Shown here piece by piece: positions 19,047-45,441 of a DNA stretch of 64,000 nucleotides (positions within the stretch are counted from its first letter, which is position 1; every line of letters begins with the position of its first letter). Source of the DNA: an uncultured Pelagibacteraceae bacterium (GTDB lineage: Bacteria > Pseudomonadota > Alphaproteobacteria > Pelagibacterales > Pelagibacteraceae); the NCBI GenBank assembly GCA_902592655.1, contig CACJFE010000001.1, forward strand, positions 1-64,000, written 5' to 3'. The position numbers were made by a program, and so were the translations under genes. The notes beneath the pieces were generated by a model. That model saw nothing but the letters and a program-made list of their open reading frames with translations, did not search any database and had not been told where the DNA came from.

Positions 19047-20093
19047 ATGTCAAAAATTGTAATTATTGGCGCTGGGGCGATGGGTACAGCTTTCTCTTTA
19101 CCTTGCCTAGATAATAATCATGATATCAATATTGTTGGAACTCACCTCGAAAATGATTTTATTGATAAAATTAAAAAAAACAAAAATTTACACCCAGGTT
19201 TAAATACTCAAATTCCGGAGCAAATAAAGATCTTTAAATTTGAAAAAATTGATGAAATCTTAAGTTCTAAAGTAGATTTAGTAGTATTAGGAATAAGTTC
19301 AAAAGGAATAGAATGGGTTGCAGATCAACTAAGCAGACTCTACACGGGGAAAAATCTGCCAAATTTACTAATGCTAACTAAAGGTCTTAGCGTTTACAAA
19401 AACAATTATGAATTATTAGTTGATAAATTGGAGAGGTTGCTTTTTGATAAGGGAATTTCAAACGTCAATATTTCAGCCGTAGGAGGACCTTGTTTAGCTG
19501 CTGGGTTAGCTAATAGAGTTCATAGCAGTGTAGTTATAGCAAATAAAAATTTAAGTATAGCAAAAAAAATAGCTGATATGTTAAATACTAGTTATTACCA
19601 TACATCTTTCTCTGATGATTTAAATGGTGTCGAAGTATCAGCCGCGATTAAAAATATTTTTTCTATGGCGGTAGGTGCAGCTAAAGGCTTGTGTAGTAAA
19701 AATATTTCTGATGAAGTTAGAGAAAAAAACTATTTAAATACAGCCTCTGCACTAATAAAACAATCAATTTTTGAAATGGAAATCTTTGTAGAACATCTCA
19801 AAGGAAAAAAAGAAACTGTAAAAGGACTAGCTGGTTTGGGAGATCTTTATGTAAGTTCAGGTGGAGGAAGAAATGCAAAAATGGGAGCTTATATTGGAGA
19901 GGGGTTAACATTTACAGAAGCAAAAAAAACAAAAATGGAAAAAGTTACTGTTGAAGGCGCCGATTTAGCGAAAGAGATCGCAAAAAAAGTTAATGAGGAT
20001 TTTGATGAAAAAAAATTACCTTTAATGCTAGGTATGATTAATGCTATTGTTGAAGATAAAAAACTTGAATTAAATTGGGAAGCATTTAGATGA
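19047..20093 (+). CDS. gpsA: NAD(P)-dependent glycerol-3-phosphate dehydrogenase (GpsA family)
   Basis: IIGAGAMGTAFS Rossmann, GPCLAAGLAN, AIKNIFSMAVGAAKGL, GLAGLGDLYVS. Confidence 0.88.
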   Translation: MSKIVIIGAGAMGTAFSLPCLDNNHDINIVGTHLENDFIDKIKKNKNLHPGLNTQIPEQIKIFKFEKIDEILSSKVDLVVLGISSKGIEWVADQLSRLYTGKNLPNLLMLTKGLSVYKNNYELLVDKLERLLFDKGISNVNISAVGGPCLAAGLANRVHSSVVIANKNLSIAKKIADMLNTSYYHTSFSDDLNGVEVSAAIKNIFSMAVGAAKGLCSKNISDEVREKNYLNTASALIKQSIFEMEIFVEHLKGKKETVKGLAGLGDLYVSSGGGRNAKMGAYIGEGLTFTEAKKTKMEKVTVEGADLAKEIAKKVNEDFDEKKLPLMLGMINAIVEDKKLELNWEAFR

Positions 20094-21571
20094 AAAAGTT
20101 TATAATTTCTGTTGATGCAGGAACAACATCTAATAGATCAATTTTATTTGATTTGAAAGGTAAGCCAATTTTTTCTTCACAAAAAGAATTTACACAGTAC
20201 TTTCCAAAAAGTGGATGGGTTGAGCATAATCCGGATGAAATTTGGAAAACAACAACTAAAACTTTAAAAGACGTAATACAAAAAGCTAGAAGCTTAAAAG
20301 GTAAAATTTTAAGCATTGGTATCACAAACCAAAGAGAGACCACTGTTCTATGGGATAAAAAAACTGGAAAACCTGTTTATAAAGCTATTGTTTGGCAAGA
20401 CAGAAGGACTGAAGAATTTTGCAAAAAACTAAGAAAACAAAATAAAGATACGATGATTTTTAATAAAACTGGCCTTTTGATAGACTCTTATTTTTCTGGA
20501 ACAAAAATTAAGTGGATTTTAGACAATGTCCCTGAAGCACGGCAGTTAATGAATAAGAAACAATTGTTATTTGGAACAATTGACAGCTTTTTAATTTGGA
20601 GACTTACAAAGGGAAAAGTTCATGCAACAGATGCAACAAACGCAAGTAGAACAATGATATATAATATTTCCTCAAATAAATGGGATGATGCAATATTGAG
20701 TCTTCTCAAAATTAAAAAACATATTCTACCAGAAGTGAAAGATTGTGCAGATGATTATGGTCAAACCCATCCCTCTGTAACTGGTAAACCAATTCCGATT
20801 AATGGAGTAGTAGGTGATCAACAATCAGCAACAATTGGCCAATGTTGTTTTGAACCTGGCTCTTTAAAAAGTACTTACGGAACTGGAGCTTTTGTATTAT
20901 TAAATACCGGTTCTAAAAAAATTTACTCAAAAAATAGACTATTAACAACAATTGCTTACAGAATTAATGGAAAGACAACATATGCAATGGAGGGGTCTAT
21001 CTTTATAGCTGGTGCTGGTGTGCAATGGTTAAGGGATAGAATGAAATTTTTTAAGAAAGCATCTGAAACAGAAAAAATAGTCAAATCACTTCAAAACAAC
21101 AATGATATTTATTTAGTTCCAGCATTCACTGGATTAGGAGCACCGTATTGGGACGCCAATGCCAGAGGAGTTTTAAGCGGCATTTCTAGAGATACAAGTC
21201 CTAAAGAAATAGTCAGAGCTACTATCGAGGCAGTAGCTTATCAAACTCACGATCTTTTTGAAGCTATGAAACATGATGGTTTGAGACCTAAAATTGTAAA
21301 AGTTGATGGCGGGATGGTAATGAATAATTGGTTTTCACAATTTTTATCTGACATAGTGAATGTAAAAGTATTAAGACCTAAGGTTCACGAAACTACTGCC
21401 TTAGGTGCAGCTTTTATGGCAGGACTTCAAATTGGTATTTATAAATCTTTAAAAGATATTTCAAAAAAATGGAATTTAGACAAAAGATTTTCTCCAAAAA
21501 TGAGAAACGTTTCAAGGTCAATTCTTATCAAAGGATGGGAAAAAGCTGTCAAGCGCGCATTAATAAATTAA
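20090..21571 (+). CDS. glpK: Glycerol kinase
   Basis: SVDAGTTSNRSILFD, GITNQRETTVLWDKKTGKPVYKAIVWQDRRT, GDQQSATIGQ, KSTYGTGAFVLLNTG. Confidence 0.97.
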   Translation: MKKFIISVDAGTTSNRSILFDLKGKPIFSSQKEFTQYFPKSGWVEHNPDEIWKTTTKTLKDVIQKARSLKGKILSIGITNQRETTVLWDKKTGKPVYKAIVWQDRRTEEFCKKLRKQNKDTMIFNKTGLLIDSYFSGTKIKWILDNVPEARQLMNKKQLLFGTIDSFLIWRLTKGKVHATDATNASRTMIYNISSNKWDDAILSLLKIKKHILPEVKDCADDYGQTHPSVTGKPIPINGVVGDQQSATIGQCCFEPGSLKSTYGTGAFVLLNTGSKKIYSKNRLLTTIAYRINGKTTYAMEGSIFIAGAGVQWLRDRMKFFKKASETEKIVKSLQNNNDIYLVPAFTGLGAPYWDANARGVLSGISRDTSPKEIVRATIEAVAYQTHDLFEAMKHDGLRPKIVKVDGGMVMNNWFSQFLSDIVNVKVLRPKVHETTALGAAFMAGLQIGIYKSLKDISKKWNLDKRFSPKMRNVSRSILIKGWEKAVKRALIN

Positions 21572-23477: not shown

Positions 23478-24542
23478 ATGAGCTTAGAATTAAAAAACGT
23501 TGAAAAAAAAGTAGGATTAGACACTCATATTTACCGAACAAATTTAAAATTACAAAAAAATACGATTAACATTCTTTTAGGTTCTACTTTAGCTGGAAAG
23601 ACTACATTAATGCAGATTATGGCTGGCTTAGATAAACCAACATCAGGCGAGATTTGGTTTAACAATGAGAATGTAACAGGTATGAAAGTTCAAAAAAGAA
23701 ATGTCTCAATGGTTTACCAGCAATTTATTAATTACCCCAACTTCACAGTTTATGACAATATTGCATCTCCATTAAAGATTACCGGAGTAAGTTCAGACGA
23801 GACAAAACAGAGAGTTGGAAAAGTTGCAGAATTACTAAAACTCTCTGGAATGTTGAACAAAAAACCAAATGAACTTTCCGGAGGACAGCAACAAAGAACA
23901 GCTTTAGCAAGAGCTCTTGTAAAAGACTCAGATTTAATACTTTTAGATGAACCACTTGCTAACTTAGATTTTAAATTAAGAGAAGAATTAAGAGAGGAAT
24001 TACCGAAATTATTTGAGAATAGAGACTGTATAGTAGTTTACGCAACCACAGAACCTTCAGAAGCTTTACTCTTAGGTGGTAATACTGCAACTTTACAGGA
24101 AGGTAAGATCATTCAATATGGAAAAACTTTAGATACTTATAATAAACCTAACTCTTTAGTTTCAGCCCAGGTATTTAGCGATCCACCAATGAATATAGCT
24201 AAAATAAAAAAATCAGGAGATCAGTGTTCATTTTTACAAAATAACATTCAATGGAAGACTAAAATAAACATCAAAGACGGTGAATATAAAGTAGGGATTA
24301 GACCCCATAATATTACAACATATAAAGAGGGCAACAACACACTTGAGATAAAAGGTAAAGTTTTAATCTCTGAAATCAGTGGTTCTGAGAGCTTAATCCA
24401 CTTTACAAACGGAAATTTGAACTGGGTCTCTTTATCTAACGGAGTTTTTCAAAAAAACGTAGGCGATGAGATGAATTTATACATGAATACAGATGAGTTT
24501 GTTTATTTTGATCAAAATGAGAGGTTGGTATCCAATGGCTAA
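23478..24542 (+). CDS. glpS: Glycerol ABC transporter ATP-binding protein (GlpS-like)
   Basis: LLGSTLAGKTTLMQ Walker A, LSGGQQQR signature, LILLDEPLANLD Walker B; H-loop His replaced. Confidence 0.87.
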   Translation: MSLELKNVEKKVGLDTHIYRTNLKLQKNTINILLGSTLAGKTTLMQIMAGLDKPTSGEIWFNNENVTGMKVQKRNVSMVYQQFINYPNFTVYDNIASPLKITGVSSDETKQRVGKVAELLKLSGMLNKKPNELSGGQQQRTALARALVKDSDLILLDEPLANLDFKLREELREELPKLFENRDCIVVYATTEPSEALLLGGNTATLQEGKIIQYGKTLDTYNKPNSLVSAQVFSDPPMNIAKIKKSGDQCSFLQNNIQWKTKINIKDGEYKVGIRPHNITTYKEGNNTLEIKGKVLISEISGSESLIHFTNGNLNWVSLSNGVFQKNVGDEMNLYMNTDEFVYFDQNERLVSNG

Positions 24543-25599
24543 AGTTACATTAAAAGGTTTAAGCCATAGTTATTTAAAAACTCAATCTTCAGATGCTGAT
24601 TGGGCAATCAGAGGAGTAGATATTGATTGGAATGATGGGGGTGCTTATGCTTTATTAGGCCCGTCAGGTTGTGGAAAGACAACATTGTTGAATATTATTT
24701 CTGGATTAATTACCCCAACTAAAGGCGATATACTATTTGATGACAAAGTTGTTTCAGGCTTGAATCCTGTAGAGAGAAATATCGCACAGATTTTTCAATT
24801 CCCGGTTATTTATGACACGATGACAGTATATGATAATTTAGCGTTTCCTTTAAGAAATAGAAAAATTCCAGAGGAAGAAATTAAAGCAAAAGTTCATGAG
24901 ATAGCTGAAATGTTGGAGTTATCTTCAACATTAAACAATAGAGCTTCTGGTTTAACTGCAGATGGAAAACAAAAAATATCACTAGGACGCGGATTGGTAA
25001 GATCAGATGTAAATGCCATTATGTTTGATGAACCATTAACAGTAATCGACCCTCATTTAAAATGGATTCTAAGATCTAAACTTAAAGAACTTCATCAAAA
25101 GATTAATAGAACAATGATTTATGTAACACACGATCAAACAGAGGCTTTAACTTTTGCTGATCAAGTAGTTGTAATGCATGAAGGTCAAATTGTTCAAACA
25201 GGAACACCAGTAGATTTGTTTGAAAAACCAAAGCATACATTTGTTGGATATTTTATTGGCTCACCAGGTATGAATGTTTTACCTTGTCAAATTAAAGGAA
25301 ATGATGTCTTCGTTAATGGAAAAAAAATAGAAACTCACCAACAAATAAAAAAAAATAATTTTAGCAAGACAGAAGTTGGTGTGAGACCTGAATTCATATC
25401 TTTTAGTAACGAAGGAATTCCTGTTAAAGTTTTATCAGTAAGTAATACAGGAAGGCATAAAATTGTAGACACTGAAAGTGAAACTGGAAAAATTAAAATG
25501 ATTGCAAAATCTAATGAAGATATTCCGTCAGGATCTGCATTTTTAAAATTCAAAAAAGAATATACTTTTACATATGGAGACAATTGGATAATTGAATGA
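24535..25599 (+). CDS. glpT: Glycerol ABC transporter ATP-binding protein (GlpT-like)
   Basis: Walker A LLGPSGCGKTT, IMFDEPLTVIDP, YVTHDQTEAL; degenerate signature LTADGKQK. ATG at 24535 preferred over the track start at 24493. Confidence 0.87.
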   Translation: MAKVTLKGLSHSYLKTQSSDADWAIRGVDIDWNDGGAYALLGPSGCGKTTLLNIISGLITPTKGDILFDDKVVSGLNPVERNIAQIFQFPVIYDTMTVYDNLAFPLRNRKIPEEEIKAKVHEIAEMLELSSTLNNRASGLTADGKQKISLGRGLVRSDVNAIMFDEPLTVIDPHLKWILRSKLKELHQKINRTMIYVTHDQTEALTFADQVVVMHEGQIVQTGTPVDLFEKPKHTFVGYFIGSPGMNVLPCQIKGNDVFVNGKKIETHQQIKKNNFSKTEVGVRPEFISFSNEGIPVKVLSVSNTGRHKIVDTESETGKIKMIAKSNEDIPSGSAFLKFKKEYTFTYGDNWIIE

Positions 25600-26462: not shown

Positions 26463-27259
26463 GGAAAGCTAAGTGGGTGGTTCCTACAATTTATATTATT
26501 TTCTTGATGCTTCCAATTTATTGGTTACTTAACATGTCATTCAAAACGACTACCGAGATTATAAACACTTATACATTATGGCCTCAAGAATTTACACTAG
26601 ATAATTATAAGAAAATTTTTACCGACAGTACTTGGTATACTGGGTATCTTAATTCTATTTATTATGTAGTGATGAACACTGTGATTTCCGTGGCAGCCGC
26701 ACTGCCTGCAGCTTATGCTTTTTCTAGATATAAATTTTTAGGGGATAAACATTTATTCTTTTGGCTATTGACTAACAGAATGGCTCCACCTGCAGTATTT
26801 GCATTGCCATTTTTTCAATTTTATTCATCAGTAAATTTGTTTGATACGCATGTGGCTGTAGCTTTATCACATTGTTTGTTTAATATTCCTTTAGCAGTGT
26901 GGATTCTAGAAGGGTTTATGTCTTCTGTGCCAAAAGAATTAGATGAAACAGCTTATGTAGATGGTTATTCATTTTGGAGATTTTTCTTCAAGATATTTAT
27001 TCCAACAATTACCGCGGGTATAGGTATTACTATGTTTTTCTGTTTTATGTTTTCTTGGGTAGAATTATTATTAGCTAAAACACTTACTGCTGTGGCAGCG
27101 AAACCAATAGCTGCAACGATGACCCGAACAGCCAGTACCTCTGGTTACGAATTAGGTTTATTAGCAGCAGCAGGTAGTTTGACAATTGTACCTGGGGCAA
27201 TTGTGATTTACTTTGTAAGAAACTATATAGCCAAGGGGTTTGCACTAGGAAGAGTATGA
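26459..27259 (+). CDS. glpQ: Glycerol ABC transporter permease (GlpQ-like)
   Basis: MalG/UgpE-type permease; EAA motif ELDETAYVDGYSFWRFFFKIFIP. Confidence 0.88.
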   Translation: MRKAKWVVPTIYIIFLMLPIYWLLNMSFKTTTEIINTYTLWPQEFTLDNYKKIFTDSTWYTGYLNSIYYVVMNTVISVAAALPAAYAFSRYKFLGDKHLFFWLLTNRMAPPAVFALPFFQFYSSVNLFDTHVAVALSHCLFNIPLAVWILEGFMSSVPKELDETAYVDGYSFWRFFFKIFIPTITAGIGITMFFCFMFSWVELLLAKTLTAVAAKPIAATMTRTASTSGYELGLLAAAGSLTIVPGAIVIYFVRNYIAKGFALGRV

Positions 27260-27615
27260 TGATGATAAATATTTTACATGCCGCAACCTGGGGAGACATG
27301 GCTAAGAATAAAGAAAAAGGGTTCTTTGATTTTGAATTTATCACTTGGATGGCTTGGACTTGGCAAACCGCAGCTTTCTTTATCTTTATAGTTTTGTGTC
27401 TAACAGCAATGGTTATTTGGGAAAAAAAATCACCCGGAGGTAGCCCAAGAAAAGGTATTTTAGGTTTAGATACTACTAGAGGAGACAGATTATTTATATC
27501 ATTGTTAGGAAGTGCTTTTATACATTTATTTTGGCTGGCTCTAGTCGGCAGTATTTTGTGGCTAGCGACAATTTTATGTATTTTCTATGCTATTATTGTA
27601 TTTAGATATGTTTAA
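27256..27615 (+). CDS. glpU: DUF2160-like small membrane protein (GlpU-like)
   Basis: MAWTWQTAAFFIFIVLCLTAMVIWE..TTRGDRLFISLLGSAFIHLFWLALVG, characteristic glycerol-transporter-associated protein. Confidence 0.82.
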   Translation: MMMINILHAATWGDMAKNKEKGFFDFEFITWMAWTWQTAAFFIFIVLCLTAMVIWEKKSPGGSPRKGILGLDTTRGDRLFISLLGSAFIHLFWLALVGSILWLATILCIFYAIIVFRYV

Positions 27616-27632
27616 AATTTCTAATAATTTAA

Positions 27633-28916
27633 ATGTATAAAAAAATAGTTAGTTATTTATCTCTTGCTTCATTAATCACTCTTTTAAGTGCTCTTATTGT
27701 TTTTCTTGCAATTGACTTGAATATTTTAAATTCAAAAAAAAAATTGTATGAAACGTTTCCTAATTTTGAATTAAGAAAAATAATTTTTAAAAAAAACTCT
27801 GAAATAGAGCATTTTGAAAACGATTATAATATAAAATTTTTACCTTACACACAGTTTGAAAAAGTAAATTTTGTAAAAAAAAAAATTATATTTGAAAATG
27901 ATCTTATCTCTAAAAAAAAAAATTTAGATACATCAATAGCCTATAAAAGATATAATTCTTTTTATATTGATTTTTATAAAGATGATTTATTTTTAACTGA
28001 TCATATTGGAAATACTTATTATATAAAAAAAAAAGAATTGTTTTCTTCAACAAAAAATTTAAAAGCAAAAAACATTAAAGGAAATTTAAATGTAACTAGA
28101 GTTTTTGACTCGTTTATCTACAACGATAAGATTTTTGTTTCATTTACATCTCAGAAAGAAGAATGTAACGAAATTAATATTAGTTATGCAAAAATTAATC
28201 TTGAGAAATTAATTTTTGAAAATTTTTTTAGCTCAAATCATTGTAATAAGACAGGATCTCCTGGAAGAATTCAAATTTTTGAAAAACAGGGAATTAAAGG
28301 TCTATTAGTAAGCACTTCTGAAGGCAGACGAGATAAACCAGGTTTAACTACCCAGAAGAAAGAGTCATTATTCGGTAAAATTTTATTCATTCCGATAGAT
28401 GAACCTAACAATATTGAAATTTATTCTATGGGACATAGAGTTATACAAGGACTATCGGTTGATAATGGTATTATTATTTCTACAGAACATGGTCCACGCG
28501 GTGGTGATGAAATCAATAAAATTTTACCTAATAAAAATTATGGCTGGCCTATTGCCTCTCTTGGTGAGAGGTATGATTTTGATTATAAAAATGAAAATTT
28601 AAAGTACAAAAAAGACCATAAAGATAACAATTTTGAAGAGCCAATTTTCAGCTTCATTCCAAGTATAGGGATATCTGAAATTATAAAACTACCTAATTCA
28701 TTCTCAATATTTTATCAAGATCATTATGTTTTATCTTCATTAAATAGTGGAAGCATCTATTTCATAAGACTCAGTGAAGATAAAAGCAAAGTTATTACAT
28801 TAGAAAAAGTTTTTCTTAATAATAGGATTAGAGATATGAAGTTTTCAAAAGAAAATAATAGCATAATACTAGCTTTGGAGGAGAATGCAGAAATAGGTGT
28901 TTTAAGAAAAGAGTGA
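27633..28916 (+). CDS. Glucose/sorbosone dehydrogenase-like beta-propeller protein
   Basis: SEGRRDKPGLTTQKKESLFGKILFIPID, GHRVIQGLSVDNGIIISTEHGPRGGDEINKILPNKNYGWPIAS. Confidence 0.75.
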   Translation: MYKKIVSYLSLASLITLLSALIVFLAIDLNILNSKKKLYETFPNFELRKIIFKKNSEIEHFENDYNIKFLPYTQFEKVNFVKKKIIFENDLISKKKNLDTSIAYKRYNSFYIDFYKDDLFLTDHIGNTYYIKKKELFSSTKNLKAKNIKGNLNVTRVFDSFIYNDKIFVSFTSQKEECNEINISYAKINLEKLIFENFFSSNHCNKTGSPGRIQIFEKQGIKGLLVSTSEGRRDKPGLTTQKKESLFGKILFIPIDEPNNIEIYSMGHRVIQGLSVDNGIIISTEHGPRGGDEINKILPNKNYGWPIASLGERYDFDYKNENLKYKKDHKDNNFEEPIFSFIPSIGISEIIKLPNSFSIFYQDHYVLSSLNSGSIYFIRLSEDKSKVITLEKVFLNNRIRDMKFSKENNSIILALEENAEIGVLRKE

Positions 28917-44370: not shown

Positions 44371-45441
44371 ATGTCAAATTATTTCCTAGAAATACAAAAA
44401 GGTAACTTTGTTGCCAGCGAGAAAAATAAAGTAAATAATTTTAATCTTAAAATTGAAAGTCAGGGTGAGATAATTTCTTTACTTGGTCCCTCTGGAATAG
44501 GAAAGACAACAATCCTAAGAACATTGGCTGGTCTTCAAAAATTAAATTCAGGCAAGATTTTTTTGAAAGGTAAGTTAATTTCTTCAAAAGATGTACATAT
44601 CGAACCTGAAAAAAGAAATATAGCTCTATCCTTTCAAGATAACTCTCTGTTTCCTAATTACACTGTTATTGAGAATATAAATTTTGGAAAAAAAAGAGTT
44701 AATGGCAACAGCTCACCCGTAGATGCAAAAGAAATTATTGGTATATTGCATATTGAACCAATATTAGAAAAATATCCACATCAAATTAGCGCTGGAGAAG
44801 CACAAAGAGTTTCTTTAGCAAGATCATTAATGTCAAAACCAGACTTATTACTTTTAGACGAACCTTTTTCAAATATAGATCAAAGTTTAAAAGAAGAAAT
44901 ACAAGTGTCAGTAAAAAAACTTTTGAAAAGAATTAAGTTAACAACAATAATTGTAACTCATGACTCTTATGAAGCCTTTTCAATGGCTGACAAATGTGGA
45001 ATTATTTTAGATCAAGAATTAAAACAATTTGATATCCCTTATAATGTACACCATGAACCAAATTCTATTAACGTAGCGAATTTTTTAAACAAGGGAATAT
45101 TTATAGATGTTAAGGTAGTAGATAGTGAATGCGCCGTTCACAGATTAGAACACGAAGAGTTGGGTGAAATAAGAGGCAAATTATCAAATAATTTTCCATC
45201 TGGCTCTAAAGTCAAACTTCTTTTACAACCCGAAGATTTAATCCATGATGACCAAAGTAAATTAAGATTAGAGGTGGTAGACAGAAAGTTTAGAGGAACT
45301 AATTTTATATACACTCTAAAAACAAAAAAAGGGGAGCATCTACCTGTATTTGTTCACTCTCATCATATTCACCAACACGAAAAATCTGAACAATTCGGAG
45401 TAAAATCTCCGATTTATATTGACCATTTAGTATGTTTTTAA
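44371..45441 (+). CDS. fbpC: Fe(III) ABC transporter ATP-binding protein
   Basis: LLGPSGIGKTTILRTLAGLQ, ISAGEAQRVSLARSL, LLLLDEPFSNID, VTHDSYEAF. Confidence 0.9.
   Translation: MSNYFLEIQKGNFVASEKNKVNNFNLKIESQGEIISLLGPSGIGKTTILRTLAGLQKLNSGKIFLKGKLISSKDVHIEPEKRNIALSFQDNSLFPNYTVIENINFGKKRVNGNSSPVDAKEIIGILHIEPILEKYPHQISAGEAQRVSLARSLMSKPDLLLLDEPFSNIDQSLKEEIQVSVKKLLKRIKLTTIIVTHDSYEAFSMADKCGIILDQELKQFDIPYNVHHEPNSINVANFLNKGIFIDVKVVDSECAVHRLEHEELGEIRGKLSNNFPSGSKVKLLLQPEDLIHDDQSKLRLEVVDRKFRGTNFIYTLKTKKGEHLPVFVHSHHIHQHEKSEQFGVKSPIYIDHLVCF

Follow-up and report, generated by a model that had tools for sequence, protein, structure and literature searches.

GlpS and GlpT, the two MalK-type ATPases of a predicted glycerol importer in a SAR11 genome, most probably work as an obligate heterodimer with one hydrolytic ATP site and a second site that holds ATP, hydrolyzes it slowly if at all, and is kept in this state by selection. 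We assign this reading a probability of roughly 0.8. By sequence comparison, the altered residues of the second site are fixed among orthologues, the two genes are neighbors in every locus examined, each protein forms a clade of its own, and both share the MalK fold. Four elements of one and the same site, namely the A-loop, the H-loop, the signature, and the D-loop, are altered together.

The glycerol operon and its two ATPases

In the window, i.e., the whole stretch of 64,000 nucleotides that was analyzed, the operon runs on the forward strand in the order glpK, GlpV, GlpS, GlpT, GlpP, GlpQ, and DUF2160 protein. The glycerol kinase GlpK (20090–21571) scores 697–729 bits against NCBIfam GlpK, which is above the cut-off, and offers a pathway clue to the substrate. 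It is followed by the solute-binding protein GlpV (PF01547; 21677–23410), GlpS (23478–24542), GlpT (24535–25599), the UgpA-like permease GlpP (PF00528; 25596–26462), the MalG/UgpE-like permease GlpQ (PF00528; 26459–27259), and a GlpU-like small membrane protein (PF09928, E 5e-34; 27256–27615). The latter carries the DUF2160 domain and is a conserved neighbor of the importer in most of the glycerol operons read. A GpsA-like gene (by eye, an NAD-dependent glycerol-3-phosphate dehydrogenase) at 19047–20093 overlaps the start of glpK, and a glucose/sorbosone dehydrogenase-like protein (PF07995) is encoded at 27633–28916 on the same strand, directly 3' of the operon. Neither GlpR nor GlpD was seen in the inspected stretch around it. 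The window encodes two MalK-type ATPases, two permeases, a DUF2160 protein, and a binding protein of about 570 amino acids beside glycerol genes. GlpSTPQ(U)V of Rhizobium leguminosarum and others has the same gene set and neighborhood, and the transporter of the window is a member of this group. It differs from the group in no ATPase motif, and its operon lies beside glpK and the GpsA-like gene. The arrangement of the window recurs in loci L009, L011, L012, L014, and L015. The window's nearest relatives, judged by the glycerol importer locus, are Pelagibacteraceae (SAR11) single-cell genomes, with a GlpT identity of 97–98%; the identity of S and T to plasmid-borne orthologues from glycerol operons is about 46–59%. 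The importer occurs in 85 of the 338 good-quality proteobacterial genomes sampled and in 29 of 53 near-complete genomes from the family to which the window belongs. Glycerol is the predicted substrate, with the adjacency of glpK as the one clue.

GlpS and GlpT each have 354 amino acids. Their AlphaFold models (pLDDT 91 and 87, respectively) adopt the MalK fold over both the NBD and the C-terminal domain, with TM scores of 0.91 for GlpS against ATP-bound MalK (1q12) and about 0.8–0.88 for GlpT against MalK-type chains. The most likely start of GlpT is 24535, which agrees with its orthologues and gives an overlap of 8 bases with the end of GlpS. A start at 24493, proposed by the ORF lister, lies inside GlpS and was rejected, as the orthologues favor 24535. 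UgpC is the best NCBIfam match of both proteins; with 241 bits (GlpS) and 286 bits (GlpT) they do not reach the cut-off of 432 bits of the UgpC equivalog NF008653. In the profile search, the lowest GlpT scored 486 bits and the next family 309 bits. GlpST resembles UgpC and MalK of the CUT1 type I importers in the full-length fold including the C-terminal domain, the kind of permease, and the use of a binding protein. However, the latter transporters contain two copies of one subunit, and thus two identical sites with all motifs canonical, whereas GlpST consists of two different subunits with one of the two sites degenerate. Unlike in type IV exporters, the NBDs are not fused to a membrane domain, the permeases being encoded by separate PF00528 genes, and unlike in RbsA-type importers, the two NBDs are products of two genes and not parts of one polypeptide.

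Two predicted composite ATP sites

In an ABC dimer, the D-loop spans the subunit interface. Each site pairs the A-loop, Walker A and B motifs, Q-loop, and H-loop of one subunit with the signature of its partner (PMC7756269). With this geometry, the site formed by the GlpT Walker motifs and the GlpS signature is fully canonical, whereas the site formed by the GlpS Walker motifs and the GlpT signature has every change. The intact site comprises the A-loop Tyr13 (24571–24573), Walker A GPSGCGKT (24658–24681), Walker B Asp165-Glu166 (25027–25032), and H-loop His199 (CAC, 25129–25131) of GlpT, together with the signature LSGGQQQR (23874–23897) of GlpS. At the degenerate site, the A-loop of GlpS has Val12 (23511–23513) in place of the aromatic W13 of MalK (KKVG versus KAWG), and residue 191 of its H-loop (VYATTEPSEAL) is Thr (ACA, 24048–24050) and not His, while the Walker B Asp157-Glu158 (23946–23951) is retained. 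The GlpT signature that faces these residues is LTADGKQK (24952–24975), with LTADG (residues 140–144, 24952–24966) in place of LSGGQ, and the D-loop on the same side is LTVIDP (25036–25053), where LSNLDA is canonical. The Gly-to-Asp exchange in this signature falls on the position of CFTR G551D.

A previous sequence-only reading of this DNA had described a canonical signature and a replaced H-loop His in GlpS, a canonical Walker A and H-loop but a ruined signature in GlpT, and, from these, one intact and one degenerate composite site. All these motifs can be read directly from the sequence as described, and on the MalK dimer every altered element maps to a single composite site and none to the other. 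That reading missed the loss of the A-loop aromatic residue in GlpS and the D-loop TVIDP for SNLDA in GlpT, which both map to the degenerate site as well. The Walker A of GlpS (GSTLAGKT, 23580–23603), which it had called atypical, is indeed unusual; the motif nevertheless fits GxxxxGK[ST], with Lys41 invariant and Thr42 all but invariant, and a broken Walker A in GlpS is thus ruled out.

Since GlpS keeps the Walker A Lys, the Q-loop Gln, and the Walker B Asp-Glu, the degenerate site is best understood as one that binds ATP but does not hydrolyze it efficiently. All human degenerate sites have an altered partner signature (PMC7756269). However, the catalytic Glu is present in every GlpS, unlike in most degenerate sites of exporters, so that some turnover may occur there, and this is the main caution. 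Both sites of a heterodimer might hydrolyze ATP if residue 191 (Thr or Ser), together with Glu158 and the LTAD pseudo-signature, made up an unconventional active site. The invariance of Glu158, Asp157, Lys41, and Gln81 in GlpS would agree with this, as would the conservation of Thr or Ser at position 191 itself and the finding that some ABC proteins can do without the H-loop His, the exporter Pdr5 being cited as an exception (PMC6222333). We nevertheless regard two active sites as unlikely, because the A-loop, H-loop, signature, and D-loop of one site are all altered, Asp takes the place of the second signature Gly, and mutation of the His alone lowers the ATPase activity to less than 2% in MalK (H192R) and HisP (PMC6222333).

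In the preferred heterodimer with a single hydrolytic site, hydrolysis would take place between Walker A and B, the Q-loop, and the H-loop of GlpT and the signature and D-loop of GlpS. The second site, built from Walker A and B of GlpS and the pseudo-signature and TVIDP D-loop of GlpT, would probably bind ATP, with slow or absent hydrolysis, and its altered motifs would be held by selection. As an obligate pair, GlpS and GlpT would power a glycerol ABC importer that consists of GlpSTPQ, GlpV, and GlpU and might spend one hydrolysis per transport cycle. The second site could then serve ATP economy or act as a regulatory latch. In MalFGK2, damage to one MalK severely impairs transport, according to the title of Davidson and Sharma (1997), cited in PMC4846820; single-site operation in GlpST would thus need compensating changes. 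Neither a structure nor biochemistry of GlpST was found in the open-access literature.

Conservation, phylogeny, and predicted pairing

GlpS and GlpT were collected from plasmids, named genomes, 399 Pseudomonadota genomes, and two further sets of 198 and 147 genomes, which represent the phylum of locus L089 (a Desulfobulbaceae genome) and the window's own family, respectively. A first set of 172 GlpS and 174 GlpT distinct sequences was aligned with E. coli MalK to locate the motifs, and clustering at 85% identity, which gave 118 GlpS and 114 GlpT clusters, left the pattern the same. The table of the first set has 173 GlpS rows; one of them is fully canonical and most likely is an extra S-type match in L042. 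The H-loop position of GlpS is Thr in 126, Ser in 45, Ala in 1, and His in none of the 172 sequences, and the clusters have Thr, Ser, Ala, or Pro throughout (His 0/118). Its flanks are conserved (T190 in 118/118 and E192 in 114/118 clusters). The A-loop residue is Val in 99 of 118 clusters, or Val or Ile in 158 of 173 sequences, and rarely aromatic. Walker A Lys41, Q-loop Gln81, and Walker B Asp157-Glu158 are each found in 118/118 clusters, the Walker A Thr in 117/118. The signature is LSGGQQQR in all first-set orthologues of GlpS, and its S, G, G, and Q are each conserved in 118/118 clusters. In GlpT, the H-loop His is present in 174/174 sequences and 114/114 clusters, and the A-loop Tyr and the Walker B Asp-Glu in 114/114 clusters. 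The GlpT signature of the first set follows L[TSAGD][AP]D-x-KQK apart from a few cases and never contains Gly-Gly. This pair is likewise absent from the clusters (0/114), where the second Gly is Asp (Asp143) in 110/114. The D-loop reads [AV]NLD in GlpS versus TVIDP in GlpT, where L, T, V, D, and P occur without exception (114/114 clusters) and Ile in 113/114. GlpST thus has the features of the degenerate-site class, in that one signature is altered while that of the partner is canonical, and that a facing catalytic residue (Glu and/or H-loop His) is altered, in this case the His, with the Glu kept.

Both losses co-occur in all 175 orthologue pairs examined, as well as in additional pairs from SAR11 and Desulfobacterota, and thus are not sporadic, as they would have to be to refute the sequence-only reading. 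Fixed in about 115 diverged pairs, the pattern goes beyond chance. Even the most divergent pair (L253/L254) has both, with YATPES in GlpS and LNAAD in GlpT, and keeps the A-loop Tyr. The substitutions are fixed in members of Rhizobium, the Roseobacter group, Azospirillum, Comamonas, Desulfobacterota, and Streptomyces. The pattern of degeneration was found in Pseudomonadota, Desulfobacterota, and Actinomycetota, the last represented in the sample by two loci only (L013, Streptomyces; L185, Nonomuraea), and it extends to a subfamily without glycerol genes. Most of the altered positions are invariant or almost so in GlpS and in GlpT, and thus are maintained and not decaying. Relaxed selection on a transporter that decays in a genome-reduced, AT-rich SAR11 lineage would be in line with the small genome that contains the window (0.95 Mb in contigs, 80% complete). 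However, identical substitutions are fixed across phyla, and the dN/dS of glpS and glpT within SAR11 is 0.03–0.14, with dN being lower for the ATPase domain than for the C-terminal one. These results refute such decay, to which we give practically no weight. Co-variation of GlpS residue 191 (Thr or Ser) with GlpT residue 142 (Ala or Pro) was also considered (127 T-A, 37 S-P, and 9 mixed pairs). It looks strong but reflects only three to four changes on the tree, with one of four independent pairs changing in the same direction, and was provisionally put down to shared ancestry.

In phylogenetic trees calculated from alignments stripped of the A-loop, signature, D-loop, and H-loop columns, GlpS and GlpT each form a single clade of MalK/UgpC-type ATPases (support 100/99 and 100/100, respectively), which include the two ATPases of the window. 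The two clades are sisters with moderate support (88/86 and 94/88 in two trees). In 175 of 175 loci, S and T are direct neighbors, and their order never changes. The subfamily that lacks glycerol genes (Streptomyces L013, Ponticoccus L186, SAR11 L287) clusters in both the S and the T tree, as expected if the two proteins travel as a pair. Its gene order is binding protein, permease, permease, S, T, and the degenerate site is shared. This importer was seen in the SAR11 loci L287–L290 and L292 (genomes G826, G887, G872, G835, and G910), in L013, and in L186; the neighbors are a HupE/UreJ-like gene and a TRAP transporter in L287 and an alcohol dehydrogenase in L013 and L186. Alternatively, GlpS and GlpT might not pair at all, one homodimer driving transport and the other being regulatory or serving another permease. 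MalK-type ATPases normally homodimerize, and some, such as MsmX, are shared among transporters (PMC7658222). However, neither homodimer would have an intact site, because GlpT2 lacks a signature and GlpS2 the His, and only the heterodimer can supply a complete one. The invariable adjacency and the matching subfamily split in both trees also speak against unpaired subunits, which we consider highly improbable. Both losses in GlpST appear to predate all sampled members.

Other tandem ATPases and the place of GlpST among ABC transporters

All 62 ATPases of the comparison set (MalK/UgpC, PotA, and similar) keep the H-loop His, and the Walker B Glu is lost in one, the second gene of locus L231. The comparison signatures are canonical or nearly so, except in the first gene of L231 (LSVNI) and, more mildly, in the long-branched L003 (ISAGE). 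L003 is another MalK/PotA-like ATPase of the window (44461–45093), with Ala in the A-loop and SFQDNSLFP as Q-loop. The tandem pair in L231 (3116–6157), also present on plasmids (L266–L269), shows complementary degeneration with the same composite-site logic as GlpST. Its first subunit has LSVNI for LSGGQ, while in the second the Walker B Glu is Asp and the signature, LSGGE, is near canonical. In contrast to GlpST, the gene order is opposite and the partner has a changed Glu instead of a lost His. The L231-type operon is of a sugar type, with a LacI regulator, a Gfo/Idh oxidoreductase, a sugar isomerase, and an epimerase. In more distant relatives (L270–L272), the first subunit has LSVNE and the second still has DEP. 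This intermediate, with the signature lost and the Glu present, suggests that the signature changed first in the L231-type lineage. Such an order is sensible because in ABCB1 loss of the catalytic Glu alone is inactivating, whereas added signature and Q-loop changes restore transport (PMC7544095). The order of losses is legible from this lineage only.

Tandem genes alone do not imply degeneration, since the pairs in L226–L230 and L233 have intact His and Glu in both subunits. In the signatures of L226, L227, L228–L230, and L233, Gln is replaced by Asp or Glu (LSGGD, LSGGE, LAGGD). We favor independent origins of the GlpST and L231-type degenerations, which the trees suggest but do not establish. 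AU tests did not reject a single clade of T with Ca (p 0.47) or of S with Cb (p 0.215). The signature loss might be common to both by descent, with the second losses hitting different residues. That a one-hydrolysis engine evolved more than once in MalK-class importers, through duplication, signature loss in one copy, and only then loss of a catalytic residue of the same site in the partner (the H-loop His in GlpS, the Walker B Glu in the L231-type pair), to yield an ATP latch and a cost of one ATP per substrate, is a tentative proposal that we hold to be rather less probable than its opposite.

One degenerate ATP site is textbook knowledge for exporters, and MalFGK2 with two identical sites is the textbook model of the best understood importer class. 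Like GlpST, the exporters TM287/288, TmrAB, TAP1/TAP2, and BmrCD have complementary losses in their NBDs, one of which retains the signature without its catalytic residues, the other the Walker side without a signature. GlpST, however, serves import, its ATPases are separate subunits, and they have a regulatory C-terminal domain. GlpS resembles TAP1 and GlpT resembles TAP2. The Walker B Glu, whose loss is usual in exporters, is kept in both GlpS and GlpT (PMC7756269; PMC7544095). The sequence-only reading had regarded such asymmetry as less discussed in importers. As far as the open-access literature goes, this is correct for MalK-type importers, but one degenerate ATP site has already been reported for the fused CUT2 (type II) importers RbsA and NupO (PMC11466899). 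There the NBDs are fused, the second Walker A has no Lys, and the site is thought to be unable to bind ATP, whereas GlpS keeps the phosphate-binding residues. A search of the open-access literature found no description of asymmetric sites in GlpST or any other MalK-type importer. The asymmetry of GlpST thus apparently is undescribed for this class, while degenerate sites as such are known from exporters and CUT2 importers.

Why half of the ATP sites are dead and yet conserved in many ABC transporters is a long-standing question, and most work on it has used exporters, which are difficult experimentally. GlpST would bring an exporter-like design into the class of MalFGK2, where direct tests can be made by measuring ATP per substrate, by one-site mutants, and by grafting the motifs into MalK. 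The L231-type lineage offers a natural intermediate, in which the order of losses is open to study.
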